A stretch of DNA of 33,399 nt from Bifidobacteriaceae bacterium (GTDB taxonomy: Bacteria > Actinomycetota > Actinomycetes > Actinomycetales > WQXJ01). The notes below the pieces were generated by a model that searched no databases, was not told where the DNA came from, and saw nothing but the letters and a program-made list of their open reading frames with translations. A program made the position numbers and the translations under genes. The stretch lies in contig JAIROU010000307.1 in the NCBI GenBank assembly GCA_031257375.1, positions 1-33,399 of the forward strand, given 5' to 3'. Within the stretch, counting starts at the first letter, position 1, and each line of letters starts with the position of its first letter. This document shows, piece by piece, positions 2,793 through 22,106 of this stretch.

Positions 2793-3179
2793 CTAGGAAT
2801 TCGGCCGCTGGGGAGTTTGGCCGCCCGCGTGGAGCGTGGAACCGGCTTCGGCGAACAGTCTTGCAAGGGCGGCCCCCCACTCTGGAAGGCTCTTGGCGAG
2901 CGTGTTCCAGGTGATGTCACGGTCGATCTCGTCGTATTGGTGAATCAACCAATTGCGGTTGGCCACCGCCAGCGACCAAGACGCCCCGTCCGGTGCTGGC
3001 AGGCCGGACCGCTCAAGCCGGTTCGCCGCTTCGCCCAGTTTCATCATTAGCGAGTCGCCGGCTTCTTGGATGAGCGGGTCGGCCATGTACGCTGACTTGC
3101 CGCGCCGGACTATGTCGCTCGCGTGCCCGAGCCAGGCGCGCACATGTGCCGGTTCTTTCGCTGAGCGGGTATCCATCAC
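2793..3179 (-). CDS. hepT: HepT-like (DUF86) HEPN RNase toxin
   Basis: RNWLIHQY matches the Rx4HxY motif; adjacent MntA-like gene with 4-nt overlap. Confidence 0.8.
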   Translation of the reverse strand: MMDTRSAKEPAHVRAWLGHASDIVRRGKSAYMADPLIQEAGDSLMMKLGEAANRLERSGLPAPDGASWSLAVANRNWLIHQYDEIDRDITWNTLAKSLPEWGAALARLFAEAGSTLHAGGQTPQRPNS

Positions 3180-3649
3180 AGCGGCACCGCCTGGTGCCTG
3201 ATGTCGTCATCGAGGCCGGGCTTCAACGCGCCGTGGGTCACCAGGTCAACGCGGCGCCCAAGGATTTGCTCGAACACCTGCTTGAGGTCGAGCAAGTCAC
3301 CGATCGTGGCCCCCTCGGGAGGCTGTGCCAACAGGTCGACGTCCGAGTCCGTCCCGGCTTGACCCCGCGCGAGTGATCCGAAGACCGCCAGCCGGGAGAA
3401 TCCCCGCTCGGCCGCTATCGCCTTGAGCACTGGAACTGCGGCTTCCAACGCCACGTCCGCGGGCAACGAGGCAAAGCCCTTCGCAGTCGCTAACCGCTGG
3501 CTCACCGCCGGCTGGCTCACCCGCAGAGTCTTGGCGATTTCAGCTTGACTCATCCCCACCGCCGCCATCGCCCGCAGCGTGGCGTGGTGGCGCGCCCGCG
3601 CCAAGAAGGCCTCCTTCTTGGCTGCCGCGATGAGCCCAGCGAAATCCAT
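3176..3649 (-). CDS. mntA: MntA-like minimal nucleotidyltransferase antitoxin with N-terminal HTH
   Basis: GSLARGQAGTDSDVDLL (GSx10DxD) and HTH MSQAEIAKTLRVSQPAVSQRL. Confidence 0.85.
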   Translation of the reverse strand: MDFAGLIAAAKKEAFLARARHHATLRAMAAVGMSQAEIAKTLRVSQPAVSQRLATAKGFASLPADVALEAAVPVLKAIAAERGFSRLAVFGSLARGQAGTDSDVDLLAQPPEGATIGDLLDLKQVFEQILGRRVDLVTHGALKPGLDDDIRHQAVPL

Positions 3650-3915
3650 AAGGCAAGCTTATCAGCTCTGCCGGGGTCACCGCCGAGGCCCCCCTCCCGC
3701 CTGCTGCCGGTGCCCGCGAATCAGATCTGCGGCGTTGGCGCTGGTTCGCGTCCAATCCGTGGGGTTTGCGTGGGGGACAGATGGGCGGGGGCATCTCTGT
3801 TCGCGGTGGCTCCCGTCCATGCGGACAGAGGTCTGCGCTTGCGGCTTGGCCGGCACGGCGGTGTTGTTTCGGGGCTGCGGCGGTGGCCTTGGCTTGGCCT
3901 TGGATCGGCTGGTCT

Positions 3916-5828: not shown

Positions 5829-5895
5829 CGAGCCGCCTTGGGGAATCGAACCCCGGACATTCTCAGCGGTTGATTGGCTTCCAACGGTTTGCGTG
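5829..5895 (-). repeat. att-like partial tRNA-Thr 3' end, copy A
   Basis: agccgccttggggaatcgaacccc (minus strand GGGGTTCGATTCCCCAAGGCGGCT: T-arm plus acceptor). Confidence 0.75.
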
Positions 5896-5978
5896 CCAGG
5901 CGGAACGTTCTGAGCGACGCCCAAATTCGGCCGCGTTGGGCGCCAATCCCTGGAACCCCGCTGCGTGTGGGCGGCCAG

Positions 5979-6254
5979 TCAATCCAGCCGGCTGCCTTCA
6001 TCGTCTGCGGGCGCCGAGGCCAGGTCCAGCTCGACTGCCCGATCAATCAGCCAGCGCTCGATGATCGTTTGTCGGTCGGTGCCTTCCGCGTCAGCCGCCA
6101 GGTCGATCGACGCCACCAGGGCTGCGGAAAGCAGCACGCTGACGTACTGGTCGTCGGCATCGCGCTTCGCGCTGCCGAGGTCAACGTATTCGTAGAACTC
6201 GTCACTTGCCTCATCGAACAACCGGTCGAGTTCGTCAGCGTCGATTTCTTTCAT
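5979..6254 (-). CDS. BrnA-like antitoxin, copy 1
   Basis: SVLLSAALVASIDLAADAEGTDRQTIIERWLIDRAVELDL; downstream of and overlapping BrnT-like gene; paralogous to 8175-8420. Confidence 0.65.
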   Translation of the reverse strand: MKEIDADELDRLFDEASDEFYEYVDLGSAKRDADDQYVSVLLSAALVASIDLAADAEGTDRQTIIERWLIDRAVELDLASAPADDEGSRLD

Positions 6255-6565
6255 AGTATTGCCGTACCTCCCTCTGAGTCGCTAGTCGTACTGAAATCAG
6301 CAGCACGGCATCGCCGCGTGGCGTCCAAAAGGCCGCATAGATTCTGTTCTCCAGCCGGGCAAGACGCAGGAACCGAGTCTCCGACGGATACTTGGCAGAG
6401 TCGTCGAACCCTAGTCTGTCGCGCCAAAGACGCTGCGCCCGCTCGAAATCGATCCCGTGTTTCGCGCGGTTGGCTCGGCTCTTGCCCGGGTCGTACTCGA
6501 AAACAGGGGTGCCACGGTGCGGGCGCTGGCCGGGGGGGACCGCTCAGCTCGCCTCGCCCGCCCAT
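6235..6565 (-). pseudogene. BrnT-like (DUF497) toxin, copy 1, frameshifted at a C7/G7 homopolymer
   Basis: FEYDPGKSRANRAKHGIDFERAQRLWRDRLGF...RIYAAFWTPRGDAVLLISVR in minus frame; ATG at 6565 out of frame; a 6-nt tract would restore the frame. Confidence 0.65.
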
Positions 6566-7197
6566 CACCCATCCTCGGGCAGGCGCGCGACTATGCGCTG
6601 GTCCCGCGCGTAGGGGACAACCACAACCTTGCCGAAATCCCACATCTCGTCGAACGGCTCCCCGTAGCACACCACGATGGAAGGCCGAATCGCCCTGAAC
6701 ATCTCCCCGTAACCGCGCATAAACTCCCAAGGGACGTCGCGGCAACCCACAGTTGAGACCGACACCACAGAACCGATCTCTATACCCGCGAAGCAGAAAT
6801 CGAAGCTCTTCCCCCCGCTCCACGACACAGTTGGAATCACCGTCATGCCTTGAGCCTGCCAATAGGCGCCGCACCAACGGTTCCGGAACGTATTGACAAG
6901 TTGCAGCATCGCGGACGTGTCCATCCATAAGCTGAAGTCCGGTGACAGGACCTGGCGGTACGCGGCCAATTCCGCGAGGTGTCCTTCGGGAGCACTCCAT
7001 ACCTCGTCGAACTTGCCGTCATCCTCGTAGAAGTGGACGCTGGCCGCCGCGCCCTGGACGTCGTCAGTGACGGTGTTGCTGTACCGAATCAGCTGCAGGT
7101 CGTCTAAGGCCACAGCCTGCCTGCGGATCAAGGGCATGTCGTAGCGCCCCACCAACGGCAAGCCCTGTTCGAAATACCATTCGATCAGATGCGCCAT
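6565..7197 (-). CDS. DUF4417-like protein, full-length copy
   Basis: YRQVLSPDFSLWMDTSAMLQLVNTFRNRWCGAYWQAQGMTVIPTVSWSGGKSFDFCFAGI. Confidence 0.65.
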   Translation of the reverse strand: MAHLIEWYFEQGLPLVGRYDMPLIRRQAVALDDLQLIRYSNTVTDDVQGAAASVHFYEDDGKFDEVWSAPEGHLAELAAYRQVLSPDFSLWMDTSAMLQLVNTFRNRWCGAYWQAQGMTVIPTVSWSGGKSFDFCFAGIEIGSVVSVSTVGCRDVPWEFMRGYGEMFRAIRPSIVVCYGEPFDEMWDFGKVVVVPYARDQRIVARLPEDG

Positions 7198-7475
7198 TCT
7201 TTGAGTCTACCGCCGTGGTGCCTCGTGTGGCGCGAGCGGGCTGGCCGACAGGGAGCCGCTGTTGTCGGCGCATCTCGTTGGGCGCGAGCGCGGTTGTCGT
7301 CTTGGGGGCCGGATACACCCATAGTGCCGAGAGCGGTCAAAGCGCCGCGCGCGGCAAACGTCTCGCTTTGCGGCTCTTGTGTTGCGCGCCCAGAATTCAG
7401 GCCGGGAGTATGGGGCAATCTACTCCATGACGGATTGCCGGGGCTTCGGGGTCGATGGGGGCATCTGACCTGGGC

Positions 7476-7516
7476 AAACGAGCCGCCTTCGGGAATCGAA
7501 CCCGAGACCTATTCTT
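7476..7516 (-). repeat. att-like partial tRNA-Thr 3' end, copy B
   Basis: aaacgagccgccttcgggaatcgaacccgagacctattctt. Confidence 0.75.
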
Positions 7517-7519
7517 GGC

Positions 7520-7868
7520 GGCGGCGCTGCAGGTGGTCAACACGTTGCGCAACCGATGGTGTGGCGCGTACTGGCAGGCGAAAGGGCTGACCGTGATCCC
7601 GACTGTGTCGTGGGGCAGCGGCAAGAGCTTCGACTTCTGTTTCGCGGGAATTGAGCAGGGCGGTGTGGTGTCAGTCTCGACTGTCGGCTGCAAGGACGCG
7701 CGGAGGGAGTTCATGCGGGGGTACCAAGAGATGCTGCGGGCGGTAAGACCCGAAGCGGTGGTCTGCTACGGCGAGCCTTTCGAGGAGATGTTCGGGCAGA
7801 GCGAACTTGTCATCGTCCCGTACGTCCGCAACCAGCGGATCGCTACCCGTTTGCGAGGGGATGCCTAA
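7520..7868 (+). pseudogene. 5'-truncated DUF4417 gene, starting at att copy B
   Basis: LQVVNTLRNRWCGAYWQAKGLTVIPTVSWGSGKSFDFCFAGI... aligns to residues from about 99 onward of the 6565-7197 protein; 5' part replaced by the tRNA-like sequence. Confidence 0.65.
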
Positions 7869-8203
7869 TGGGCGGGCGGGGCGGCCTCCCGGGCGGGTGG
7901 CCTCAGCGAGTTTGGCCCGCCCCCGAGTTCGAGTACGACCCGCGCAAGAGCAAGCTGAACAAGTCCAAGCACGGCATCGATTTCGAGACGGCAAAGGATC
8001 TGTGGGACGATCCCTTGGGCTTCGATGTCGCTGCCGGCCACTGGTCAGAGGTGAGGTTTACCCGCCTTGCACGTCTCGGGGGCAAGGTGTACGCGGCAGT
8101 TTGGACGCCCAGGGGCGAGGTAATCAGGTTGATTTCGGTTCGCCGAGCGATTCAAGAGGAGGTGCATAGGTACCGTGGAGGGAATCGACGCACAGGAATT
8201 TGA
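7868..8203 (+). CDS. brnT: BrnT-like (DUF497) toxin, copy 2
   Basis: FEYDPRKSKLNKSKHGIDFETAKDLWDDPLGF...KVYAAVWTPRGEVIRLISVRRA. Confidence 0.75.
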   Translation: MGGRGGLPGGWPQRVWPAPEFEYDPRKSKLNKSKHGIDFETAKDLWDDPLGFDVAAGHWSEVRFTRLARLGGKVYAAVWTPRGEVIRLISVRRAIQEEVHRYRGGNRRTGI

Positions 8204-8420
8204 TCGTCTGTTCGATGAGGGCAGTCCCGAGGCCGTCAAGTATATGGATTTCGCAAATCCAATCGGTAGGCCGGAGAACCAGTTCATCAGTGTGGAGTTG
8301 TCGGCCGCGATGGTTGCCCTGATCGATGAGGTAGCGGACGCGGACGGCGTGGATCGGCAGACGGTCATAGAGCGCTGGCTGTTGGACAAGGCCGTTGCCT
8401 TGGACATGGAGCAGACCTGA
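8175..8420 (+). CDS. BrnA-like antitoxin, copy 2
   Basis: Overlaps toxin 3' end; paralogous to 5979-6254. Confidence 0.65.
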   Translation: MEGIDAQEFDRLFDEGSPEAVKYMDFANPIGRPENQFISVELSAAMVALIDEVADADGVDRQTVIERWLLDKAVALDMEQT

Positions 8421-8540
8421 CCCGGGAACGACGCGACACCTGCTTGCGATCGCGACGACCGCGTTTGCCGTCGCGCGTTGAGTGGTCCAGCCTGCGACGC
8501 TGGTGCCGTCGCCTTGCGCAAGGCAGAAGCCATGTGTGGG

Positions 8541-8612
8541 AGCCGCCTTCGGGAATCGAACCCGAGACCTATTCTTTGCGGTTGATTCGCTTCCAACAGT
8601 TTACGTGGGTTC
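8541..8612 (-). repeat. att-like partial tRNA-Thr 3' end, copy C
   Basis: agccgccttcgggaatcgaacccgagacctattctttgcggttgattcgcttccaacagtttacgtg; shares extended flank with copy A. Confidence 0.75.
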
Positions 8613-8844
8613 GCGTCACCTTCCGTAAACTGCCATTGACCACGGACGATGCCGTGCCGGGGCTTTCGTTGTTTGCCGTCAGTTCGCGCAGGCTCGCGTC
8701 CATTCCGTGGGGTTTCCGTGGGGTTCGGGGCACCCGCGGACAGCGGGAAACGGGAAAATGAAGAGCGCCGCGGCCGTGAGGCCTGCGACGCTCTTCCCAA
8801 CCCCGTTGCCGGGGAATTGTGCTTCAACTGTAACCTGGGATGTG

Positions 8845-9639
8845 ATGTTGCCGCAACCAGAACCCAAGCTCGTGCCGGGGCTGCTGGCCATGGTGGCGCC
8901 AGAGCGCCTGCGGAAGTTCCGTCGAGCCGCCCCGGCAGGGGCGCACCGGGCGGCCCTCAGCATGTATCTGGTGGATGCCGAGTTGACCTCGTACTTCCAT
9001 GCGTTGCTGCGGATCGTTGAGGTGCTGTTGCGTGAGGCCATCCACCGGGCGATGCGCGATGCGTTCGGGACACCCAGGTGGTTCGCCGTTCCAAACGTGC
9101 GCGCGCTGCTCGATCCGCGAACCGTCACGGCCCTGGACGACGCGCAGCGAGGCGCCAACCCCAGTGTCCGCGGCACACCCGCCGCAGGCAGTGTCGTGGC
9201 GGGAATGATGTTCGGAACCTGGGTGAACCTCCTTGACACTGGCGCGCGCGGAAATTACGAAGCGGACTTGTGGCGTCCAGTCATTTCCGGGGTATTCCAG
9301 GCTGACCAGCCAACGGCGCCGCATCCGCGGGCTCAGGTTCACGCCCTGGCCAAACGTATGAACTGGGCCAGGAACCGCGTCAACCATTGCGAACCGGTCA
9401 TCTTCGGCTTCCCGCGCAAAGGCCAGATCACTGCCCAGGGTCTGCGGCTGCGGACAACGCCGCACCAACTGCTCGACGATGCCCGGACCTTATGCGGGTT
9501 CATCAGCCCGGAAACTGCGGCATGGCTCGCCGGTTGGCACCAGTTCGAGGACGTGTTGGCAACCCAGCAGGTAGCCGAAGCTTTGCGCTACATCGACCGC
9601 CAGCCCGGAATCGCCCTCCAAGGACGCCGCAGACAATGA
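8845..9639 (+). CDS. Abi_2/AbiD-F-like abortive infection protein (HEPN)
   Basis: AELTSYFHALLRIVEVLLREAIHRAM...FGTWVNLL...RMNWARNRVNHCEPVI (Rx4H motif). Confidence 0.75.
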   Translation: MLPQPEPKLVPGLLAMVAPERLRKFRRAAPAGAHRAALSMYLVDAELTSYFHALLRIVEVLLREAIHRAMRDAFGTPRWFAVPNVRALLDPRTVTALDDAQRGANPSVRGTPAAGSVVAGMMFGTWVNLLDTGARGNYEADLWRPVISGVFQADQPTAPHPRAQVHALAKRMNWARNRVNHCEPVIFGFPRKGQITAQGLRLRTTPHQLLDDARTLCGFISPETAAWLAGWHQFEDVLATQQVAEALRYIDRQPGIALQGRRRQ

Positions 9640-9751
9640 CCGACCAATAGCGCGTGACCTGCGGGCCTGGCTCAGCGCCCTGAACGGCTTACGCAGTCCA
9701 CGACGGGAAGCAAACTCGGCAAGTTTAGCCCGGTGCGCGGGACCAAGACCC

Positions 9752-10924
9752 CTACTTGGCTGCGGCATGTCGCATGCGAAGCTCGGCTCGGTATTCCCGC
9801 CGGACCTGGTCGTAACGAGCGTCGTCAAGTGCCGCCAGGTAGCTCACGGCATCGCCCGACCAACTCGTGGTCTGCGAGCTCATGTGTCGCCAGGCATATC
9901 TGGGCTGGTCCCTTAGTCCTTCTTTCCAGCAAATCGCCTGGTAGTCGCGTGTAGTAAGGTGCCGTCCGTTTCGGCGTTGGTTGACTTTTGCCAGGAGTTC
10001 TGTGGCGCTGTGGGGATGGGTCTCATTGGGGTCGGTCTTCCTGATAGCAACTCTGCCATTGGCCGTCGGTACGACAGCCACGGCTAGGTCGGCACTCGTA
10101 ACCTTCTTGACTGACTGAAGGCTGATGTCATATACCATCGCCACCCTTGCCATATCGCTCCCCGAAGCTTCGGCTTCTGCCAAGAGCTTGCGCAAGTCCT
10201 CAACGAACTCTTGAGCCACAGCGACCATGCGGGCATTCTTGTCTACTCGCATGAAAGACACGGAGTCCGCCGGTGCCGTGGCGGCCAGCGGCAGCAGTTG
10301 CCAAGTGACGGAGTCCGCTAGGTCCTTCCCGAACCTGGCCAGCACGAAATCGCGGTAGTTCAGGACGTTCTGCTGCAGGAACGGGTAGATCAACGCGCCC
10401 AGCCCTTGCGCGTTGTAGAGGTGGATAGCGCGGTCGCGGAACTCGGTCAGCGCGCTGATGTTGGCAGTTAGGGCCGAGCCGTCAATCCGGTCCGGCCACA
10501 GCTTACTGTTGGTGACCCTGACCAAAGCATGCTGAAGCGACACCGATCGGTACTTTTCGCCGCGCTTCGTGCGATAGAAGAGGGACTTGCCAGCTTGTCG
10601 CAGGGCGGCCTTCAAGGCAAGCTCCCAGGCGTTGGTCAGCAGGATGGTCGTAAGGGGCCGCCGAAAAATTAACGTCGCGCGGCGCGCCCTGGGCGGGCGC
10701 CCGGCGGCGCCGCAGGCCGCGCCCACGTAGCCCAGCTACGAGGGCGGACCTGCGGCTTGCCGGCCATCCCGCCCAGAACCCGCCGCCACGACGTTAATTT
10801 TCCGGCGGCCCCTAACCTCTTCCCGGTAGGCGATCTGAGGCTTGTTGTAGATCTCAATCGCGGACAACATGGCAGAGAGTGAGTTTGCAACCAATCGCCT
10901 GCTCGACACATACGGGGCCGACAT
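9752..10924 (-). pseudogene. DUF3644-family gene interrupted by a small palindromic element
   Basis: N-part MSAPYVSSRRLVANSLSAMLSAIEIYNKPQIAYREEV and C-part TTILLTNAWELALKAALRQAGKSLFYRTKRG in the same frame, separated by the insert with in-frame TAG at 10736-10738. Confidence 0.75.
10654..10812. mobile_element. MITE-like imperfect palindrome, 159 bp, flanked by TAA direct repeats
   Basis: Ends ggggccgccgaaaaattaacgtcg / cgacgttaattttccggcggcccc (one mismatch over 24 bp); flanks cgTAA and TAAcct. Confidence 0.75.
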
Positions 10925-10939
10925 AGCGCTCTCCTTCGA

Positions 10940-13717
10940 TCAGAACAGGGCTGGGTCGGATTGGTTGGTCAGTTTCGCGTACCGGCGCAAGAGGATACGT
11001 CTTCGGTCGTCGTTGGACGCGCCTTCGGGCACTCGGAACGCATCATCTATCACGGCGTCGACCGTGGCATGGGCTACGAGGACATCTCGCGGCTCGCGCC
11101 CGGCAGCGTAGAGGTCGGCAAGCGACATCTCATACCGCGTCTCATACCGCGTCCGTGCGTCAACGATGGCCCTGGCGCCCTCGATCAACGCCCCCCTTTG
11201 CCTCTCGGTCAGAGTTGGCAGCGGGAACGAGTTGTATGTGAAGGTATTGGAGAACCGCAGGTCGGACTTGATGCGCCCGCCGACGGCCCGCATCCACTGG
11301 ATGAACATCGTGGACGACAGCACGGCGAAGACGAAGCCATCAGGATCGGGAGTCATCGCGTTGGCGTCCCCGCAGATCACTTCTGGCCCAAACCTTGCCG
11401 CCAGGAAGAAGCGGCGGTTCTCACCGACGTGGCGCGGGATCGCCAGGTAGCTGGTCTCTGGTTGCCGCCGCTCGTCGAAGAGCCAGGCTGTCGCCGCCTT
11501 CTTGCGTGTAGGAGCTTTGGCACTGGCAGACCGGAAAGCCTTCACTGCGGAGACTCTGGAGGCGAGTAGCTGTGAACTCGCGATCTCTTCCGGAGTCGCG
11601 CTTTCCAGCCAAAGGCACCACCGGTTGATTCCGTGCAGGAGCTCCCGCGCGCCGACGAACCGGCGAACGAAGCGCCGGGCGATCGGATCTGCTTGTGCAG
11701 TGGCGAGCGATTCCCCGTCGAGGAAAAAGTTCCCATCGTCGGTCGGCTGGCTGCCTTTGGTGACTGTGGGGAGCCGCGCCCCGAGCGGGGCACCCGCACT
11801 GCTTATGTAGATCATCGGCGCGTCCGCGATCAGGTAGGCGTTGATCTGGGCGGCGTCTGTCCGGACCTGTTTGCCTTGGCCGTCTTCGCCATAGGTCCAG
11901 AGCACCGGTTTGGGTGTCGCGGATCTGTCGAAGCCGATGATTGAGACGTGCACAGCCGCCCCGTCTGCCGCCTCGGTCGCCCAGCGGAAAGAACGGTGGG
12001 CGAATCGGCAGCGCCACCCGTTTGCCGTTATGGGCCGCCACAGATATTCAGCGCCTTCGCCCGTGCAGATGGAGTTGGTGGAGACGAAGCCCCAGCGAGC
12101 CTTGTGATCGCCGTAGTAGTCGATCACCTTGGCGTACCAGCAGGTCACATAGTCTAAGTAGCCGTTGTAACGGGTGCCCCAGACGGTCTGAGCTTCAGCC
12201 TTCTGGGTTGCGGTCTTGGTGTATTGTCCGACGAAGGGCGGGTTGCCGACGATTATCACCTGGTCGGATGGGGGAACGATGGCCGCCCAGTCCTCGCGCA
12301 GGGCGTTGCCGTGGATGATGGTGGGGGCCAGTTTGATGGGGAGCCGGTGCGGAGCGGTGCCGAACTCTTCTTCCATTTGCTGGTTGGCCAGGTGGTCTAC
12401 CAGGAGCATGGCGGTCTCAGCGATGCGGGCGGGCCATTCCTCGATCTCTATGCCAAAGAAGTGGTCGATGGTGACGCAGACGTACTGGCTGACGTCAAGG
12501 ACGCCTTGGGCGAGGTTGCCCCTCTCGCTGTTGACCTTGCCGTCCGCCATGTCGAGGTTGCGGCGGTGAACCAGTGCCCGCAGTTCGATGGAGCGCAGTT
12601 CGCGGTAGGCGACCACCAGGAAGTTGCCGCAACCGCAGGCCGGGTCCATGACCCGGAGCGCCTTGAGGTCGTCTAACAGGCGGGTGAGCTGGCCCTTGTC
12701 GTGCTTCGCCCGCTCCAGCCGGTCTTCGAGTTCGTCCAGGAACAGCGGGCGCAGGGTGCGCAGGATGTTCGTCTCGGTGGTGTAGTGCTCGCCCATCTTG
12801 CGGCGGGCCTTCTTGTCCTTCACCGTCTGGAACATGGAACCGAAGATCGCCGGCGAGATAACAGACCAGTCGAAGTCGCAGGCGCCGAGCAGGGCAGCGC
12901 GGAAGCCTTCGCCTAGCTGCGGCAGGTCCAGCGGCTCGCTGAACAGGCCGCCGTTGATGTACGGCAGGCGGTGTAGCGGATGGCCATCATCAATGCCGCG
13001 TTCTGTCTCGGCCTGGTTGGCCAGCGCGAACACCTCAAGGAGTCCCGTATGCAGGTTTTCATCCGTGGTGTGCCGGTCGATGTATGCCTTGAAGATGTCG
13101 GAGCGGTTCTGGCCCCACATGGTGGTGTCGTCGCCGAACAGCAGGAACAGGAGCCGCGCCAGCAGCAGGGTGGCCTGGCCGCCTGTCACGCCGACGGTCT
13201 CCAGGTTCCCGTAGAGCGTGCCCATGAGCTTGGCGGCTTTGCTCGACTCGGATTCAATCTGGACGTCAAAGGCCTCCCGCATGCGCCCCAGCAGCGCGAC
13301 CAGCGTCGGCGGTTGCTTGATGTCGATCTCTATCGCCCCAAGCTTTTGTTCAAGGTCTTGGTTCCGCTCTCCCACCACATACCGGTGCACCATGAGCTTG
13401 GCGTTTATCCCGCCGGTCTGCGAGCGCCGGGGCCAGCGCCAGTCCTGGTAGCCGTCACCGCAGAAAATGAGCAGCCGCTCCTGGCTCTCCTTGCCGACCA
13501 CCGCGTCGATCTGCCGTTGGACTCTTCGGGGCGGCGCCTGGTCGCACACCCAGACCCGGAGACCCTTGTACGATGCCGCCGGGTCAAGCTTGTACGTGGT
13601 GCCCTCGGCCCAGACGGTGAGCGGTTCGCGATCCGGGTTGTTCCAGCCCAGTCGCTTGATGAAGAGCGAGCGGAAGCGGCCGGCGTCTACCAGTTCCAAG
13701 ATGCTGCCGCCGCTCAT
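10940..13717 (-). CDS. Large MmeI-like / class I SAM-dependent DNA methyltransferase (probable N6-adenine)
   Basis: VMDPACGCGNFLVVAYREL (motif I), VIIVGNPPFVGQ (motif IV), MGEHYTTETNILRTL. Confidence 0.85.
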   Translation of the reverse strand: MSGGSILELVDAGRFRSLFIKRLGWNNPDREPLTVWAEGTTYKLDPAASYKGLRVWVCDQAPPRRVQRQIDAVVGKESQERLLIFCGDGYQDWRWPRRSQTGGINAKLMVHRYVVGERNQDLEQKLGAIEIDIKQPPTLVALLGRMREAFDVQIESESSKAAKLMGTLYGNLETVGVTGGQATLLLARLLFLLFGDDTTMWGQNRSDIFKAYIDRHTTDENLHTGLLEVFALANQAETERGIDDGHPLHRLPYINGGLFSEPLDLPQLGEGFRAALLGACDFDWSVISPAIFGSMFQTVKDKKARRKMGEHYTTETNILRTLRPLFLDELEDRLERAKHDKGQLTRLLDDLKALRVMDPACGCGNFLVVAYRELRSIELRALVHRRNLDMADGKVNSERGNLAQGVLDVSQYVCVTIDHFFGIEIEEWPARIAETAMLLVDHLANQQMEEEFGTAPHRLPIKLAPTIIHGNALREDWAAIVPPSDQVIIVGNPPFVGQYTKTATQKAEAQTVWGTRYNGYLDYVTCWYAKVIDYYGDHKARWGFVSTNSICTGEGAEYLWRPITANGWRCRFAHRSFRWATEAADGAAVHVSIIGFDRSATPKPVLWTYGEDGQGKQVRTDAAQINAYLIADAPMIYISSAGAPLGARLPTVTKGSQPTDDGNFFLDGESLATAQADPIARRFVRRFVGARELLHGINRWCLWLESATPEEIASSQLLASRVSAVKAFRSASAKAPTRKKAATAWLFDERRQPETSYLAIPRHVGENRRFFLAARFGPEVICGDANAMTPDPDGFVFAVLSSTMFIQWMRAVGGRIKSDLRFSNTFTYNSFPLPTLTERQRGALIEGARAIVDARTRYETRYEMSLADLYAAGREPRDVLVAHATVDAVIDDAFRVPEGASNDDRRRILLRRYAKLTNQSDPALF

Positions 13718-16700
13718 GGCGCCACGCCCATCGTCGTGATGATCCGCACCGGGTCTTCGCCCGCCTTGGTGGGGATGACCAACTTGCCATCGGAGTGAAG
13801 ACTCCCCAGCAGCGCGAACAGGTCTATGTCGCTGACCCCGTTGCGGATGGCTCGGCGCAGGCGCGTCTCAGCCAGGCCGGTCAACGGGTGTTGGTAAAGG
13901 GCCTCCAACGCCAAATGGCCTTCATCGTCGGTGTTCGCGGGTTGGAGCGGCTCTCCGAGCCGCGTCCAAACCCGCTTGCGGACCCCGCGCAGACGCCCTG
14001 AGGCGGTGGCGGCTTTGGTCAAGTCGCCGCGGACCATCGTTTCAACAAGCGAGTCGTGGTCTTCCCTGAGCGGCTGTCCGGGCTCGTGCGGGTCGGCCCG
14101 GAACAAGGCGAGCGCCTCATGGCCGGTGAGGTGACGCGGGGCTAGGCCCGGCCCGCAGAACGCGAACCCGTCCACGCCGTTGGCGGAGCGCACGTAACAC
14201 CCCACCCCATCGGCCTGCTCGCCGAGCCGTTTGGCACGGGTCGCATCCACCATGTCCGGCATCGCCGGGGTGCGCTTGGCCAGTTCCGGCTCGCGTTCCA
14301 CCGCTTGACTCCAATACTGGTAGGCGAGCGAAGAGGCGTCCACGTCCTCGTCGGTGGCGATCTCATCCAGCTTGCCGTTGTACAAGTCTTCGATGATCTG
14401 GGTCTCGTCGGCGGAGCCGAAGAACTGCTCATCGGAGCCGAACGCCTGGGCGTTGGCGGCCAGGCGGTTCCCGATCCGCTGCCTAAGCGAGATCACATTA
14501 TCGACGCTCTCATGGAAGAAGGAGTAGATCACCACCTCAGCCGACCGCTGGCCGATCCGGTCGACCCGCCCGGCGCGTTGGATCAGACGGATGATGGCCC
14601 AAGGTAAGTCGAAATTCACCACGACGTGGGCGTCCTGGAGGTTCTGGCCCTCCGAGAGCACGTCGGTCGCCACCAACACGCGCAACTCGCCTTGATTCGC
14701 CACTGCTCTCTCGCCCGCAGCGCCGTTGGAGCAGGGAGCGAACCTCGCCGCCAACAAGGTCGGGTTCTCACTGTCTCCCGTCGCCACACCAACCTTCGCG
14801 ATGCCTGCGACCTCAAGCTGTTTGCCGAGGTAGACGGCAGTGTCCTGGTACTCGGTGAAGATCAGCACCTTCTCCTGCGGGTGGTCGACCTTGAGCAGCC
14901 TCACCAGTTCATTCAGCTTCGAGTCGGCCCCGGCGGTCCACGGCCCGTACCAGTCCAGCAACTCTCTGATGGCCGCGCTGTCGTGCGCGATGTCGGCCGC
15001 AAGCCGACCCGAGAACAATTCGGCTCGCACCCACTCCACGCCGCTGGGGTCGGATTGCCGAAGGGCCTCATATGCGGCGCCCGGATCAGCCTCGCCTGCC
15101 GCGTCGCCGTCCAACGTGCCGTCGGCGTCATCGTCCAAGCTCAGGGCGGAGATGTCGCCTGTTGGCACGGGCAGCCCGTCGGACAGCGCGTGCAACCATA
15201 GATCGTTGCGGGCCAGGTGCCGCCGGAGCGAAAGCTCGAAGGAGAACCCGCAAGACGACAGCCGCTTATACAAGGTGGTCCTGACAAACCCAGCCACATG
15301 CCCCCTACCGCGGGTGACGCGGTCGAAAAACTCCAGCTCTGCGTCGGTCGGTTTGACGGTGCGCAGCACATACTGACCAAGCTGATAGCGGGGCAGCTTC
15401 AGAGACAAGATCGCGTCGAGCGTCGCATCGGAGGCCATCTTGGTTGCGGGGTCGTCCGGGCCGAATGAGTGGTCTACGGGTCTTGGGCTACGACTGGGGA
15501 ATGTGAAGCGGCTGCCGTCTGTGAACTCCAGGTACCGCTCGCCTGTGGCCAAATCGGTCTTGGAGTAGCTGGATTCAATAAACGAGCGGGTTCGTCTGAC
15601 CAAATGCTCTGACATCAGCCGCTTCCAATCGTCGGCGTCCTCGGATTTGCGGAACGCAGCCAAGGTGGTGGTCTTGGAGTCCACACTGTCGGCGATGTTC
15701 GGGTCTTCGCGCAGGGCGTTCAGGGGCGCTATTCCGAGGTCGTCGTCATCGTCCACATACAGAGCGAGTTGGTTGGCGACATCGGCGAACCGGATGTTGA
15801 ACGGTGTCGCCGTGAGCAGCAACACCTTCGATTCGTTGCGTTGGATGTAATCACGGATCGCCTGATAATCCTGGCGCCGGTCGTTTCGCAGCGTATGAGA
15901 CTCGTCGGCGATGACGAACGGATAGCGGCGCAGCTCCGGCAACACTTTTCCGGCCATCGAGTAGGGCACCACACGGCCGTGCAAGTCGTATTCTTCCAAG
16001 TGGTCCTCCCACATCCGTTGCAGATTCTTCGGGCAAAGGACCAATGGCTGGTAGCCATGCTCGTCGCGGAGCATCAGCGCTACCGCGATGGCCGTCAAGG
16101 TTTTCCCCAGGCCGACCACGTCGCCGAGCATCGCGCCGCGTCGGTTCATGATCCGCCGGGCGAGCGTGCGCACGGCAGTGGTCTGGTAGTCCAGGAGGGT
16201 TCCGGCGATCTGCTGGGGAACCGAGTACTCCGCCAGGCCGTCGCGAACATCGCGGGACAAGTCGTAGCAAAGCTTCAGGAACACGTCGTACGGCCGCCGA
16301 GGGCTCGGCGCCGCCCAGGACTCGTCAATCAAGTCCAGGATGTCATCTGTGACATCGAGAGAGAACCTGTCGTTCCAGCGGTCCTCGAACCACCGAGCCA
16401 AGTCCGCCGCCCCCTGATTGTCCAGCACGTCAACGTTCAATTCGTAGTTCGAGGTCAGTCCCGGATACGTCAGGTTCGACGAGCCCACAAAACCGACAAT
16501 CGGACTGTTCACGCTGGCGGGCTTGTGGAAGATGTAGGCCTTGCCGTGCAGCGGGCGGGCTGTGAAAACTTTGACTTGGACCTTTCCCGACTTGATCTGG
16601 GCACGCAGCGCTTGCAGGGTCTGGCGGTCATCCGGGGTCGGAAGGCCCCGCATCAGCTGGGTCCTTAGATGCTCAACCAACTCCCCGCAGCGCGCCATCG

Positions 16701-16980
16701 CTGTGGAACCGTCAGCGTCGAAGACGCGGCGTCCGTCAACACAAGCCTGCAACCCGTCCAACGCCTCGCGGTGCGCGGTGCCCGTCGCCATGCCGATCAG
16801 CACACGCGCAACCGGGTCGTCGCCAGCGGGACGGTTGTCCACCAGCGGAGCGAATGTGCCCCACCCGCGGAGGTTGAAGTAGCCGACCGCCACGTCCATC
16901 CGCTCGAACCCGTCTTCGAACGTAGCCACCAAGTGTTTGCCGAGTTCGTTGCCCTTGATGTTGTCGAGAATGCGGGTCAC
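13714..16980 (-). CDS. PLD-nuclease-domain SNF2-family helicase
   Basis: LHGKAYIFHKP...GSSNLTYPGLTSNYEL (PLD); GAMLGDVVGLGKTLTA, IADESHTLRNDR, LLTATPFN, VLVATDVLSEGQNLQ, RLIQRAGRVDRIGQ (SF2); likely GTG start at 16980; 4-nt overlap with the MTase gene. Confidence 0.9.
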   Translation of the reverse strand: MTRILDNIKGNELGKHLVATFEDGFERMDVAVGYFNLRGWGTFAPLVDNRPAGDDPVARVLIGMATGTAHREALDGLQACVDGRRVFDADGSTAMARCGELVEHLRTQLMRGLPTPDDRQTLQALRAQIKSGKVQVKVFTARPLHGKAYIFHKPASVNSPIVGFVGSSNLTYPGLTSNYELNVDVLDNQGAADLARWFEDRWNDRFSLDVTDDILDLIDESWAAPSPRRPYDVFLKLCYDLSRDVRDGLAEYSVPQQIAGTLLDYQTTAVRTLARRIMNRRGAMLGDVVGLGKTLTAIAVALMLRDEHGYQPLVLCPKNLQRMWEDHLEEYDLHGRVVPYSMAGKVLPELRRYPFVIADESHTLRNDRRQDYQAIRDYIQRNESKVLLLTATPFNIRFADVANQLALYVDDDDDLGIAPLNALREDPNIADSVDSKTTTLAAFRKSEDADDWKRLMSEHLVRRTRSFIESSYSKTDLATGERYLEFTDGSRFTFPSRSPRPVDHSFGPDDPATKMASDATLDAILSLKLPRYQLGQYVLRTVKPTDAELEFFDRVTRGRGHVAGFVRTTLYKRLSSCGFSFELSLRRHLARNDLWLHALSDGLPVPTGDISALSLDDDADGTLDGDAAGEADPGAAYEALRQSDPSGVEWVRAELFSGRLAADIAHDSAAIRELLDWYGPWTAGADSKLNELVRLLKVDHPQEKVLIFTEYQDTAVYLGKQLEVAGIAKVGVATGDSENPTLLAARFAPCSNGAAGERAVANQGELRVLVATDVLSEGQNLQDAHVVVNFDLPWAIIRLIQRAGRVDRIGQRSAEVVIYSFFHESVDNVISLRQRIGNRLAANAQAFGSDEQFFGSADETQIIEDLYNGKLDEIATDEDVDASSLAYQYWSQAVEREPELAKRTPAMPDMVDATRAKRLGEQADGVGCYVRSANGVDGFAFCGPGLAPRHLTGHEALALFRADPHEPGQPLREDHDSLVETMVRGDLTKAATASGRLRGVRKRVWTRLGEPLQPANTDDEGHLALEALYQHPLTGLAETRLRRAIRNGVSDIDLFALLGSLHSDGKLVIPTKAGEDPVRIITTMGVAP

Positions 16981-17092
16981 ACGTAAATGTTCCCACCCGC
17001 CGTGACCGCCCCGCCACCTGCGACCCAACGCCTGAGGCGACAGAGCATAGGCCGTCGCGGGGATGCCGATCGGCGCGTCTCACAAGTCCGGC

Positions 17093-17632
17093 TCAGATGA
17101 GCTGTACTCGCGCACGGGTTGAGCTGCCCGGTGTGAGGCCGCCATTGTCGGTGCTGATGGTTCGGATGGCGGCTGTGGGGCGGCGTCGAGACGTCAGTCG
17201 GCTGGGGTCGTGTTCGACGCTCCCCTCCCTGCGGTCGGCCTGGTCAAGGGCTGGGTCGTATGCTGGTCGGGTCGCCGCCGGGCCGCTAGCAGCCGCTTTG
17301 GCCAAGGCTGTGAGTGCCGCCTGGGCATCCGGCCTAGCGAGCACGGCGGCGTAGATCTCGCGGGCGCGGTCGCCTTGCTCGGTGCCTTGCCTACGGTAGG
17401 CGTCGCGGTTGGCGCGTGGGTTCCCCAACTCCGGCAGGTGCTCGTAGCCGATGCCGTGTTCGGCCAGCTTCTCGGCCAGTTTCCGCTTCGAGAACCCCGG
17501 CTTGCGGGACAGCGGCGTCAGCCTTACATCGAACACCACCGACACACCTGAGGAGACCAGGTCAGCGATGACCTCTTCAACCGCGCAGCCCTCGTAGCCC
17601 ACGCCGACCAATCCACCCGGTTCACGGGTCAT
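17093..17632 (-). CDS. DUF488-family protein
   Basis: GYEGCAVEEVIADLVSSGVSVVFDVRLTPLSRKPGFSKRKLAEKLAEHGIGYEHLPELGNPRANR; C-terminus atypical. Confidence 0.75.
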   Translation of the reverse strand: MTREPGGLVGVGYEGCAVEEVIADLVSSGVSVVFDVRLTPLSRKPGFSKRKLAEKLAEHGIGYEHLPELGNPRANRDAYRRQGTEQGDRAREIYAAVLARPDAQAALTALAKAAASGPAATRPAYDPALDQADRREGSVEHDPSRLTSRRRPTAAIRTISTDNGGLTPGSSTRARVQLI

Positions 17633-17714
17633 CGCTGCCCTGCTCCCACCTTGCGGAAGCTCGGGGTAATCCCGGCTAGGCCGCATGCGTTGTGGCACGA
17701 ATAATCCTCTCGCC

Positions 17715-18110
17715 TCAAGGGCAACCATGGTCTCTCTTACGCTGGTCAAAGGCCCAGAGCGGGGCCCGGCGCGGTCCAGGGCGCCGGGGTCGGCTGGTTC
17801 GAGCCAGTGTATCGCGCATGAAGCGCATGTCTGGCGCGGGCAGCGTGGGCGCGTTCGATGTGGCTCGCACGCCGGCCGCTGTGGGTTCGGCCGCGCCGGG
17901 GAACCCAGCGGTGTGCGCGGCATCGTTCTCAGTGGTGGCGACGTAGGCGGTGTTGGCGCGCCGGCTGCGGGTCAAGGCGACGTAGAGGGTTTCCCTGGTC
18001 GCCTGCGTGGTGATGATGGCGTGGGCGGTGTCTGTGGTGACGCCTTGGGACCTGTGCGCCGTGGTCGCGTAACCCAAATCCAATCGATCGGCCACAGAGG
18101 AGGCGGGCGG
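17715..18110 (-). pseudogene. 3' remnant of a MobF-type (TraA/TrwC-like) relaxase-helicase
   Basis: DRLDLGYATTAHRSQGVTTDTAHAIITTQATRETLYVALTRSRRANTAYV (C-terminal helicase motifs); upstream body absent. Confidence 0.65.
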
Positions 18111-18144
18111 CACGACGGCTGCCCCGGCTTTGCGGCCGACCCGC

Positions 18145-18375
18145 CGCTTCCGCAAGACCGTGGGCACTGCCACCGCTCGGGCGCTCGGCGCGGAAGCCGC
18201 CGCCCAACAGCTAGCCCACACCGACCCAGCGCTCACCAGGCGCCACTACATCGAACAGCCAGACGAGGGGCCCGACGTCCGGGAAACCCTGGGCGGCTTC
18301 AGCATCCAGAGCGGGGTGTCTCCAACCGCCCCAAATCCCACAATACGGTCCAGCGGTCCCGCTTTGGGCCTCTGA
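18145..18375 (+). pseudogene. 3' remnant of a tyrosine integrase
   Basis: RFRKTVGTATARALGAEAAAQQLAHTDPALTRRHYIEQPDEGPDVRETLGGF (Arg/His box region and terminal Tyr). Confidence 0.7.
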
Positions 18376-18558
18376 CCTGGGGGATTGGTCGCGGAAGAAG
18401 GGAGAGAACCAACAACTGGGTTCTGCGCGATGCCAGGTGGTGCGACGGAGGCGACTCGCAGCACAGGCTGGACCCTACGTGATCGCACCTGGCCGGTCTC
18501 CGTGAACATCACAGGACCTTAGTTGTCGTTTTGGTTGCTGTTCCGGTAGTCTTGGCGT

Positions 18559-19371
18559 GTGAGCAGGCGTGAGGTGTACCCGAACGCTCCGATCGTGCTG
18601 GTGGCCATCGAGATCCGGCATCCCGCGGATGGGCCGCTTGGGCGCAGCCACCGGATGCAGCTGTCAACGTCGGTTCGAGATGTATTGCCGGTGCCTGACG
18701 AGGCGACCACGGTCACGGTCGAACTCCTGGCCGCCTCGGACCGCCAGCCGGCTCAAAGGCAAATGGTCACGTCTGTCCCGCGGTGGACGGCTCGCGATAG
18801 GAGGACCGCGCTGACGGTTCGCCCCGACGGTCTTGTCATTGAGACTAGTAGGTACCGCGGGTATGAACAGATTCGCGACCTGCTGGAGCTGGCTTTGCGT
18901 GCCCGCGCGGCCGTCTCGGCCCCCGCAGGTGTGGAGCGCATCGGGTTGCGCTACATTGACGAGATCCGCGTCCCGTCGGACAGGACTGATGGCCGGCCAT
19001 CTTGGCAGGAGTGGGTTGACCCGTCTTTGCTCGGGCCAGTCCATGTTGCCGACGGCATCGGGTTGACCCCTGCCGGGGGCGAGGGTATATCGGTGTTTTC
19101 GGGGACAGGCGACAAGGCCCTTGTGCTCAGGTACGGGGTTCAGGACGGCTACGCGGTCCAGTCGACGCCGCAGTTGCGTCGGCCGCTTCCGCCGCCGGGA
19201 CCCTTGTTCAAACTGGATATTGATAGCTTTTGGCAGTCGGCGAACGAGGTGCCGGAGTTCACCGTGGACTTTGTTCTTGAATGCGCCGACGAACTGCACG
19301 CGCCGGTCAGTGACCTGTTTGAGAGCTTGATTTCGGATCGGCTTCGAGAGGAAGTACTGCGCAATGGGTGA
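18559..19371 (+). CDS. TIGR04255-like family protein
   Basis: VLVAIEIRHP...ERIGLRYIDEIRVP...FWQSANEVPEFTVDFVLECADELHAPVSDLFESLISDRLREEVL. Confidence 0.6.
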   Translation: MSRREVYPNAPIVLVAIEIRHPADGPLGRSHRMQLSTSVRDVLPVPDEATTVTVELLAASDRQPAQRQMVTSVPRWTARDRRTALTVRPDGLVIETSRYRGYEQIRDLLELALRARAAVSAPAGVERIGLRYIDEIRVPSDRTDGRPSWQEWVDPSLLGPVHVADGIGLTPAGGEGISVFSGTGDKALVLRYGVQDGYAVQSTPQLRRPLPPPGPLFKLDIDSFWQSANEVPEFTVDFVLECADELHAPVSDLFESLISDRLREEVLRNG

Positions 19372-20023
19372 TGCGGTAACCGCTAACGCCGCTGTCGCGT
19401 CCGCGTTGACGGAGCGTGGAACCGCGAGTGATCTGATGACCGGCCCGGCTCGTTCGGAGACCAGACTCATGGCCGCGCAGCTGACTGAAGAAGTCGGTGG
19501 CAACCGTGGCGAGGCGCGCGCACTCCAGGCAGAGTTCGGTGATCTGCACCAGCGGATTCACAATGCCGAGTGGCGCATTGCCGCCGCCGAGCGGGCGAAG
19601 GCGAGCGTCGCGGCGATGCTGGGCGAGTTGGCGGATCTCGGTTTTTCCTGGCGAGAAATCGCCCAGCTTGTGCGTGTCAGCGTTCCGGCGGTCCAGAAGT
19701 GGCGCAAAGGCGACAGAGCGTCCGGCGAGAGCCGGCTAAGGCTCGCCAGCCTGCTCGCCGCCTGTGACCTGATCGGCGAGCACTACATGGTCGATGAGAT
19801 CGCGTCCTGGTTCGAGATGCCGCTGTCAGCCGCCGCCCCGGTGACTCCGATTGACTTGTATTCGGCTGATCGCGCCGATCTGGTGTTTGAGTTCGGGAGC
19901 GGCCATGCGGACCCTGAAGCGCTGCTAACCCAGTTCGATCCCGGTTGGCGCGACCGCTACCGGTCTGATTTCGAGGTGTTCGAGGCGGGCGACGGCAATC
20001 GATCTCTGCGCTCAAGGGCCTGA
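19364..20023 (+). CDS. HTH DNA-binding protein (antitoxin-like)
   Basis: LADLGFSWREIAQLVRVSVPAVQKWRKGD; overlaps preceding gene by 8 nt. Confidence 0.6.
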   Translation: MGDAVTANAAVASALTERGTASDLMTGPARSETRLMAAQLTEEVGGNRGEARALQAEFGDLHQRIHNAEWRIAAAERAKASVAAMLGELADLGFSWREIAQLVRVSVPAVQKWRKGDRASGESRLRLASLLAACDLIGEHYMVDEIASWFEMPLSAAAPVTPIDLYSADRADLVFEFGSGHADPEALLTQFDPGWRDRYRSDFEVFEAGDGNRSLRSRA

Positions 20024-20026
20024 GCG

Positions 20027-20743
20027 TTGGGCGGGGGCCTCGAATCGCCGCATGTGAAGGGCGCGCCGCAATGGGGCGCCCTCTACCGCGCGCGAGGCGA
20101 CGAGGTTTCACAGACCCGACCTGTGTTCACCGGGGACGTGTTCACGGGGCCGCTGCTTCCCGGCCCGACTGGCAACATCAAAACACGCACCGTGGCAATC
20201 ATTCAGCATCCATGCTCGATGCGCACAGACGGTGTGGAACTCTCCTGGCAAGTGCTCGTCGCCGAGGTGAAAAGCCGGAAGGAGATCTCCGAAGCGGACT
20301 GGGCGAGCGGCTTCTTCAACCTGATGCCGTTGCCCGACCTCAGCCCTGGCGAGGCACCGCGAACTCGCCACCGAGCGGTGGACTTCGACAACCTCTACAC
20401 GGTCGCGCCGAACCTGCTCACCCGGCGGATAGCCTGTCTGTCGCCGTTCGGCGTCAACCTCCTGCTTCAGCGTTGGGTCCACTACAGCTCAAGGGTCGTC
20501 GTGCCCACCCACAGTTTCCAGTCCGTGACGCAAGCCTTCTACGAAGAGGCGGACCTTATTGAGGAGTGGTGCGACGAGGCGGCCGGGGACCTGCGGTCGG
20601 AAGCAGAAGCGTGCGTGCGGTGGCTGCGGGCTGACCGCGCGGGCACGACCTACCAACAGATGCTGAAGGACCCGCAAACTCACAGCATGATCCGCAAGGC
20701 GATGCGTGCCGAACTCAAGAACCGGTGGCCGACCGAGAGCTAG
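20027..20743 (+). CDS. Protein of unknown function, third gene of the TIGR04255/HTH operon
   Basis: Begins 3 nt after the preceding stop (TTG 20027 or GTG 20054); SQTRPVFTGDVFTGPLLPG...VAIIQHPCSMRTDG. Confidence 0.6.
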   Translation: MGGGLESPHVKGAPQWGALYRARGDEVSQTRPVFTGDVFTGPLLPGPTGNIKTRTVAIIQHPCSMRTDGVELSWQVLVAEVKSRKEISEADWASGFFNLMPLPDLSPGEAPRTRHRAVDFDNLYTVAPNLLTRRIACLSPFGVNLLLQRWVHYSSRVVVPTHSFQSVTQAFYEEADLIEEWCDEAAGDLRSEAEACVRWLRADRAGTTYQQMLKDPQTHSMIRKAMRAELKNRWPTES

Positions 20744-20835
20744 CGCAGGCCGCAGCGTTCAAACCGGTCAGTTTCCGGTCACCCCGAACCCCATAACGCG
20801 GCCTGGACACCCCTTCTTGGGTCTCTGACCTCGTA

Positions 20836-20882
20836 AACGAGCCGCCTTGGGGAATCGAACCCCAGACCTATTCATTACGAGG
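20836..20882 (-). repeat. Prophage att site D: tRNA-Thr(CGU) 3' half
   Basis: Minus strand CTCGTAATGAATAGGTCTGGGGTTCGATTCCCCAAGGCGGCT: anticodon loop through 3' end; about 65 bp from the integrase stop. Confidence 0.8.
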
Positions 20883-20948: not shown

Positions 20949-22106
20949 TCATTTCGACGCGACCAGGCGTAGCCTGGCATAGCGTGGCGGGGTGGAAGCC
21001 TGCCCCATGTTTGCCCCACGCGGCGGGGGCAGCGCGGCCCGTATGTCGTCCGCGGTGGCGGGCGCGAAGTGGGCGTAAAGCTCGGTGGTCCGGGTCGATG
21101 AGTGGCCGAGCAACTGCGCTATGCGGCTGAGCGGGACGCCGGCCTGGGCGAGCCAAGAGGCATGGGTGTGGCGAAGATCGTGCAAAGTCGGACGCATGGC
21201 CGCCAGCCCGGCCGCCCTGACGGCGGGCTCCCACACTCGGCGCGTGAAGTTGCGGTTGTCGAGCGGGCCTCCGTTGCCGTTCGGGAACACCAAGCCCGAC
21301 GGGCACTCGCTGTGCCTGTGGGGAACGCCGCAGGGGCGCGGCTCGGGCACGGCCAGACGCTCGACGGCCCAGTCCATGAGCGGGACTCGCCGGAGCCGGC
21401 GGCCCTTCGGGTAGGGCTTGATCTCTTTGCCGCCCACCACGTCGGCCACCGTCACGACGCGCCCCTCGGCGTCAAAGTTGTGGACGTGGAGCCCGGCGAG
21501 CTCGCCCCAGCGGACACCGGTCCCCACCAGGAAGTCGAGAACGGCCCGGCTCTGCTGGTCATGCTCGGGAACCGCGCCCACCAGGGCGGCGTATTGCTCG
21601 CGGGTGAAAAAGACTGGCTCCTCGGGATTGTCTGGCGGCAGTTTGATCCTGGTTGCCGGGTTGGCCTGTAGCAGGTCGGCGTCGATGGCGGCGCTCAAGC
21701 TGGTGCGGAGGACCGCGAGGATTCGCCGGACGCCGGACGCCTTGTGCCCGTTGCCCTCGGTCAGCAGCCCGGACGCCCAGGCTTGCACGTCGTGGCGGCG
21801 GATTTCTGCGAGTTGCACGTCTCCCCAGCGCGGCATTATGTGGGTGTTGACGATGCTGGTCTCGGCGGTGAGCGTCTGCGGCTCCACCGCGCGTGACGGC
21901 CACCAAATGTCGCGCCATTTCGACCAGGTTATTTCGCTTGCGCGCGGATCGAGCGCGCCGGGCTTCCGCGCGTTGACCTCGGTCTCGGTGGCGGCGTTCA
22001 GCGCCGCCTGCTTGTGCTTGTAGACGCCGACCGACCGTTTCGCGCCGTTCCGGAGCCGGTACATGCCCCGCCACCTGCCAGACGGCAGTTTCTCTGTCCA
22101 GGCCAT
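20949..22106 (-). CDS. int: Tyrosine-type site-specific integrase (prophage)
   Basis: LVGTGVRWGELAGL; LHDLRHTHASWLAQAGVPLSRIAQLLGHSSTRTTELYAHF. Confidence 0.95.
   Translation of the reverse strand: MAWTEKLPSGRWRGMYRLRNGAKRSVGVYKHKQAALNAATETEVNARKPGALDPRASEITWSKWRDIWWPSRAVEPQTLTAETSIVNTHIMPRWGDVQLAEIRRHDVQAWASGLLTEGNGHKASGVRRILAVLRTSLSAAIDADLLQANPATRIKLPPDNPEEPVFFTREQYAALVGAVPEHDQQSRAVLDFLVGTGVRWGELAGLHVHNFDAEGRVVTVADVVGGKEIKPYPKGRRLRRVPLMDWAVERLAVPEPRPCGVPHRHSECPSGLVFPNGNGGPLDNRNFTRRVWEPAVRAAGLAAMRPTLHDLRHTHASWLAQAGVPLSRIAQLLGHSSTRTTELYAHFAPATADDIRAALPPPRGANMGQASTPPRYARLRLVASK

Follow-up and report, generated by a model that had tools for sequence, protein, structure and literature searches.

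Introduction

Islands stacked at tRNA and tmRNA genes, as well as cis-mobilizable elements (CIMEs), have been described already, and the stacking process itself is not new. Here we analysed a stretch of 33,399 nucleotides of a high-GC uncultured Bifidobacteriaceae bacterium (contig JAIROU010000307.1 of assembly GCA_031257375.1; hereafter the window, or C287 among the contigs of its genome), in which four 3' fragments of a tRNA-Thr(CGT) gene, named A to D, lie in the same direction. We consider it very likely that this region consists of integrated elements and remnants arrayed in tandem at the tRNA-Thr(CGT) 3' end, and that it arose, with the same high probability, by tandem accretion with decay in a CIME-like process.

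Several described systems come close to it. The ssrA islands of Dehalococcoides lie in tandem downstream of one tmRNA gene and are bounded by direct repeats of its 3' end, with the crossover placed in the T-loop; 15 islands have no integration module and are possible CIMEs according to the authors (PMC3146451). They rely on a serine recombinase of one family and carry 20-bp repeats and reductive dehalogenase cargo (PMC3146451), whereas the array described here involves tyrosine integrases of several arm classes, tRNA-Thr, and toxin-antitoxin (TA) or defence cargo in modules of 1-3 kb. In Streptococcus salivarius, CIMEs and microCIMEs are integrase-less remnants bounded by attachment (att) sites, found in tandem with intact elements, the classical CIMEs measuring 1.2-13 kb; they come from conjugative or mobilizable elements, at the 3' ends of rpmG, rpsI, fda and rplL, in stacks of two or three (PMC7563491). 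In contrast, the one intact occupant identified here is a phage, and there are at least four boundaries. All nine small modules found in this study (9/9) are att-bounded and devoid of recombination genes, as CIMEs are. In Methylophilaceae, an additive flexible island of variable size (330 bp to 42 kb), in which 20-bp tRNA-Lys 3' ends recur, resembles the present locus in its repeated tRNA 3' ends, and its cargo is mostly proteins of unknown function (PMC10872708). Finally, CGI48 of Shewanella is a tRNA-integrated composite island kept by the TA system HipAB; unlike the array in the window, it is nested, intact and excisable, with one TA pair (PMC8978831).

Among open-licence papers listed in our searches, we recognised no account of mini-modules rich in TA genes that share one tRNA but use several arm classes. 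These mini-modules, the several arm-site classes at a single tRNA and the T-stem variants that record past occupants are the new details reported here. They indicate that a tRNA gene can gather single TA or defence units as tiny att-bounded modules.

Four direct tRNA-Thr(CGT) fragments separate the modules of the window

A repeat finder placed four direct copies of the tRNA-Thr(CGT) 3' end in one family, with starts at 5830 (A), 7480 (B), 8540 (C) and 20839 (D) and the tRNA sense on the minus strand.

5830..5863, minus strand: fragment A, T-arm, acceptor and discriminator; T-stem CGGGG/CCCCA with one pair broken
7480..7513, minus strand: fragment B, with a paired T-stem (TCGGG/CCCGA); a truncated DUF4417 gene adjoins its 5' side
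8540..8573, minus strand: fragment C; T-stem TCGGG/CCCGA, paired
20839..20881, minus strand: fragment D, from the anticodon loop to the 3' end; forms the junction of the resident prophage on its int side

The 13-mer GGGAATCGAACCC occurs in four exact copies in the window, with no extra match at up to two mismatches, and the shuffle control gave a mean of 1.36 matches at that threshold. A 29-base core pattern has four matches in the draft genome (3.85 Mb, 89.5% complete, 491 contigs), all within the window and in a single orientation, and its reversed control had none in the same genome. A first-pass annotation, drawn from the sequence by a model, had already reported four direct fragments that set apart two BrnTA modules, a defence island and an integrase-bearing prophage. 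We observed the same arrangement, with a restriction/defence block as the island, although the positions given for the fragments were off by 1-4 bases.

From the anticodon loop to the 3' end, fragment D matches the intact tRNA-Thr(CGT) of four relatives (G001, G004, G011 and G012) at 43 of 43 positions, which bears out its earlier assignment to this tRNA, and at 37 of 43 positions it matches the intact gene of its own genome. The latter, which the annotation had proposed to look for outside the window, lies on contig C160 (8240-8315). ARAGORN found no complete tRNA in the window, as had been stated, and an Rfam scan of it returned only a sub-threshold chance match, at D. A search with the arm of C revealed a fifth, degenerate tRNA-Thr fragment on contig C485 of the same genome. 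The first part of the tRNA present in A-C is the 3' strand of the anticodon stem; they lack the anticodon-loop part with which D begins. D and A-C are not equivalent, D being a prophage junction and A-C another class.

T-arm sequences are alike between tRNAs in general and give weak cross-matches, so that such fragments might be dispersed short repeats or tRNA-like decoys with no tie to integration. However, the copies in the window are all direct, and both they and those of relatives connect to conserved arms that carry 11-bp repeats. The fragments also adjoin integrases or relics of them and, in several genomes, mark the edges of modules. Given also the lack of control matches genome-wide, we regard such an origin as extremely improbable.

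A probable prophage link between D and the intact tRNA

The right part of the window holds the early half of a prophage.

20949..22106, minus strand: resident tyrosine integrase (Int), 385 aa (PF00589, E 7.6e-28)
21002..21020, minus strand: arm repeat CGTGGGGCAAACATGGGGC inside the 3' end of int; the same repeat follows the intact tRNA on C160
20949..33399, no single strand: prophage early half, with Int, RecE-like, RecT-like and DNA methyltransferase genes; the late half lies on C160

The int gene ends 67 bp from D, and its 3' end contains the arm repeat of the resident Int (CGTGGGGCAAA, 11-bp period), which was found elsewhere only at the C160 tRNA end, where the P' repeat CGTGGGGCAAACGTGGGGC, located 3' of the intact tRNA, matches it. 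Downstream of this tRNA, C160 encodes an endolysin, a tape-measure protein and minor tail proteins. Because the phage halves are complementary and the arm repeat is the same, C287 and C160 would most simply be the two ends of one prophage, and we infer a physical link between them. Int beside a tRNA 3' core, arm repeats on both sides and phage genes, spread over two contigs, are the features of a phage with a tyrosine integrase at tRNA-Thr. Furthermore, homologues of the resident Int (38-61% identity) in five named actinobacterial loci (5/9 inspected, using ARAGORN and by eye) all terminate next to a tRNA, either intact or reduced to a 3' fragment. Those of Microbacterium share 60-61% identity, and the 61% homologue, from Microbacterium jejuense, has the same arm repeat as the resident Int. 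We found no relative of the RecE-like protein in viral contigs.

It had been suggested that the segments bounded by A-D may mobilise by means of the resident integrase. Int is indeed full-length, all four cores are tRNA 3' ends, and the resident repeat shares with the type i repeat described below the 7-mer CCCCACG at 11-bp spacing, in the opposite orientation to the core. Nevertheless, the arm repeat of the resident Int was seen only at the prophage's own two ends, that is, on the int side of D and at the C160 tRNA, and not at A-C: C and the outer side of D bear other repeats, while those of A and B are degenerate or absent. A-C moreover lack the anticodon-loop part present at D. On the basis of the arm repeats, A-C were rejected as attachment sites of the resident Int, and present movement of the segments by this enzyme is highly unlikely.

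Arm repeats fall into several classes

Three main classes of direct repeat with an 11-bp period lie at the ends of shared arms, namely type i (CCCCACGG), type ii (TGACCGG) and type iii (CTCATCG).

8574..8724, minus strand: P arm of C, about 150 bp; together with its core, 83% identical over 185 nt to the corresponding arm and core at G008:C29:6625
8708..8723, minus strand: type i arm repeat CCCCACGGAAACCCCA, 11-bp period, in the arm of C
20766..20781, minus strand: repeat TGACCGGAAACTGACC of type ii, at D but on the side away from the prophage; belongs to the P' arm of an earlier element

Repeats with this period were present in 24 of 57 arm windows, compared with 4, 0, 1, 0 and 0 of 57 for periods of 8, 9, 10, 12 and 13, respectively. 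They were found in 2% of random windows and upstream of none of the 12 intact tRNAs; the arm windows were picked after the repeats had been noticed, so the comparison between periods is the fairer test. Type i repeats lie about 150 bp from the core at C in the window, about 148 bp in G008 and 135 bp in G015, and type ii repeats begin 141 bp before the core in 4/4 cases and about 57 bp after it at D and in G007, G006 and G017. B has no P arm left.

Type ii is the class of a 405-aa integrase adjoining the intact tRNA in G007:C209, to which it was assigned because the repeat sits inside the 3' end of its gene. One type ii arm, in G015:C88, adjoins the 3' end of a tRNA-Met, indicating that the class is not confined to tRNA-Thr. 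The type ii arm and core pattern gave no match in viral contigs.

Small att-bounded modules recur in the family

At up to three mismatches and with intact genes included, the core pattern was found in 15 of the 18 genomes of the family, several of which contain tRNA-Thr fragments. Comparison of 32 cores (12 intact genes and 20 fragments) revealed that the chromosome upstream of intact genes aligns over about 700 bp in several pairs, and that downstream alignments starting at the core stop by about +100. Upstream of fragments, the alignment between modules with unlike cargo begins at the core and breaks off at about -151, so that the shared arms end sharply against unlike cargo; between G009:C3:1645 and G009:C147:5021, the shared arm is 87% identical. 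An intact tRNA and a fragment are on the same contig in three relatives (G009:C122, G011:C26 and G015:C33). The fragments coincide with module boundaries both here and in relatives, which supports the repeated site-specific integration at one tRNA that the annotation had put forward.

Ten intervals in the family are bounded by two tRNA-Thr(CGT) cores on the same contig, and 9/10 are shorter than 3 kb.

Window: A-B, 1650 bp; B-C, 1060 bp; C-D, 12299 bp
Relatives: G008:C29, 2626 bp; G009:C3, 2948, 971 and 1402 bp; G009:C122, 1861 bp; G015:C33, 2336 bp; G011:C26, 1706 bp

With 38 integrase queries at E 1e-4, no integrase match was obtained in the nine intervals under 3 kb, A-B and B-C included, self-matches of two wrong-frame ORFs among the queries (int_L182 and int_L184) being disregarded. 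The cargo of these nine modules consists of BrnT, antitoxin and DUF4417 (twice); AbiEii; AbiEi and AbiEii; a VapC-family toxin; RhuM and Fic; HTH_17 with a sub-threshold PIN; a DUF4143 ATPase; and a 234-aa protein without match. Six of the nine therefore contain a recognised TA or Fic-type unit, A-B being counted through the 59% identity of its BrnT. As a yardstick, a TA family was recognised in 1 of 10 random proteins drawn from 41 at six other loci, a comparison of modules with proteins that carries no formal test.

Integron gene cassettes are likewise small one-operon units in a row, which often contain TA genes and each end in a recombination site. Integrons use folded single-strand attC sites and IntI, whereas the locus described here has double-strand cores with arm repeats, and its mixed ends suggest decay. 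Could the modules nonetheless be cargo with a complete attP, made up of P arm, tRNA 3' end and P' arm, and no integrase, excised and inserted in trans by integrases resident at the same tRNA, with the intact tRNA as entry site? Unrelated cargo is accompanied by conserved arms of about 150 bp and 75-100 bp, the absence of integrase matches from all nine small modules would be expected, and the interval G008:C29:6625-9251 has type i repeats at both ends. Related cargo also occurs, flipped, at cores with different arms (the protein encoded at 8707 in the window and its homologue in G009:C3), and a type ii arm was once joined to a tRNA-Met end. Conversely, that G008 interval is the only one of the nine with clearly matching arm classes at both ends. 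The ends of the G015:C33 module are mixed (i and iii), the other seven have at least one end without a clear repeat of the three classes, as with B and its missing P arm, and no near-identical module was found in two places. Because the same arm class at both ends, which complete minimal elements should have, is clear in only one of nine, we read the small modules as decayed remnants and consider movement in trans unlikely. It is similarly doubtful that tRNA-Thr(CGT) is an integron-like platform in this family, on which several phage-type integrases would act in trans and cassettes would switch helper class by arm exchange at the shared core. If the modules did move in trans, phage-type integrases would spread defence genes in the fashion of integrons, without integrons.

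Partial tRNA copies were also observed at other loci. G009:C87 carries an intact tRNA-Thr(TGT) whose 3' end recurs as a 33-nt copy 7.5 kb away; pieces of integrase lie between the two. Two loci of G002 (on C241 and C121) contain tRNA-Thr(GGT) 3' copies of 44-47 nt at 2.6 kb and 0.4 kb, respectively, from intact tRNA-Thr(GGT) genes, with a tRNA-Met gene beside each. In G014:C52, a DUF4417 gene lies near a 51-nt tRNA-Gly(TCC) fragment, placing the same cargo family at another tRNA. Finally, G021:C8, from a different family within the order, has two tRNA-Thr(CGT) 3' copies that enclose a 15-kb element with an integrase, and this Int shares 34% identity with that of the window.

T-stem versions as a proposed record of past occupants

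The intact gene of the genome has the T-stem GAGAG/CTCTC, while D has TGGGG/CCCCA. We observed a fully paired T-stem in 12/12 intact tRNA-Thr genes compared with 12/20 fragments. The clearest case of a mixed fragment is G008:C29:6625, in which the T-stem half of one version is joined to an acceptor of the tRNA-Thr(TGT) type. Since intact stems are paired and fragments are often mispaired, the pattern fits incoming elements that replace the 3' half of the tRNA, some of them recombining between versions inside the T-arm. The array would then be a readable record in which past occupants each leave their own T-stem version of the tRNA and their arm repeat.

Gene content of the A-B, B-C and C-D intervals

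The two small modules of the window contain related genes.

5979..6254, minus strand: A-B BrnA-like antitoxin (NF047399, 44.8 bits, under the cut-off of 60)
6235..6543, minus strand: A-B frame of a BrnT-like toxin, given from stop to stop without a fixed start; shares 59% identity with the BrnT of B-C
6565..7197, minus strand: A-B DUF4417 protein (PF14386, E 3.3e-52)
7518..7868, plus strand: B-C DUF4417 remnant, cut at fragment B
7868..8203, plus strand: B-C BrnT toxin (PF04365, E 2.4e-19)
8175..8420, plus strand: B-C BrnA-like antitoxin (NF047399, 43.7 bits, under the cut-off of 60)

Their contents are mutually inverted although the fragments are direct, and the DNA is only 76% alike. A tandem duplication was rejected on these two grounds, which point instead to separate acquisition of A-B and B-C. 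Both may well be immobile at present.

The C-D interval is larger and holds defence genes.

8707..9639, plus strand: PD-T4-5-like protein; a 50% homologue lies beside a tRNA-Thr fragment in G009
9752..17923, minus strand: DUF3644 (PDC-S19), MmeI-type restriction endonuclease/methyltransferase, SNF2/PLD helicase, DUF488
18136..18354, plus strand: relic of the C-terminus of the type ii integrase; matches G007 Int residues 323-395 with 78% identity
18559..20743, plus strand: three-gene unit (TIGR04255 protein, HTH_23 protein, third gene without assignment) between D and a presumed lost attachment near 18.4 kb

The relic shows that C-D descends from an int-bearing element. It is followed by a tRNA-terminator-like sequence without a core, and for this reason one attachment was probably lost inside C-D near 18.4 kb. 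Given that the outer side of D is of type ii and the arm of C of type i, C-D is composite, with a defence block containing a dead type ii integrase, and the three-gene unit adjoining D. In addition, a 28-nt inverted repeat (10650-10816, 93% complementary, arms 111 nt apart) lies between the DUF3644 and MmeI-type genes.

Proposed history of the array

We propose that several tyrosine integrases, distinguishable by their 11-bp-period arm repeats, each used tRNA-Thr(CGT). With each integration, the incoming element would have come to lie next to the tRNA, separating it from earlier occupants, and a duplicate of the tRNA 3' end would have marked the new boundary. The prophage with Int beside D would be the latest arrival, inserted at or near the anticodon loop; it may have swapped the 3' half of the tRNA for its own (GAGAG/CTCTC, now on C160), with the displaced half (TGGGG/CCCCA) ending up at D. 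Boundaries A, B and C would be older, and the elements between them would have lost their integrases by deletion; presumably, selection through addiction or defence kept them as CIME-like remnants because of their TA or defence genes.

Several points weigh against this history. The inverted BrnTA modules, alike at 76%, cannot be explained by tandem duplication, and simple site-specific integration accounts neither for the missing P arm of B nor for the truncated gene next to it. The lost attachment near 18.4 kb was inferred by eye from the terminator-like sequence and the Int relic. As the ends of C160 and C287 do not overlap, their link rests on the repeat and gene content, and in a draft genome either contig may be mis-binned. 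Moreover, neither a circular form nor an empty site was seen.

Region left of A

Outside the four fragments, the left part of the window contains a further pair of genes flanked by arm repeats.

2793..3649, minus strand: MNT nucleotidyltransferase/HepT-like pair (HepT 26.2 bits, under the cut-off of 60)

Type i repeats at 2502 and 3760 flank this pair, and no tRNA core is left; the arm at 3734-3775 is 88% identical to the arm of C. The pair is possibly a further, older decayed module. Further to the left, the window encodes a fibronectin type III protein (141-1622) with a long tract of 12-bp repeats at 853-1125; a 43% homologue of this protein is found on G017:C380, a contig that also contains a tRNA-Thr fragment.

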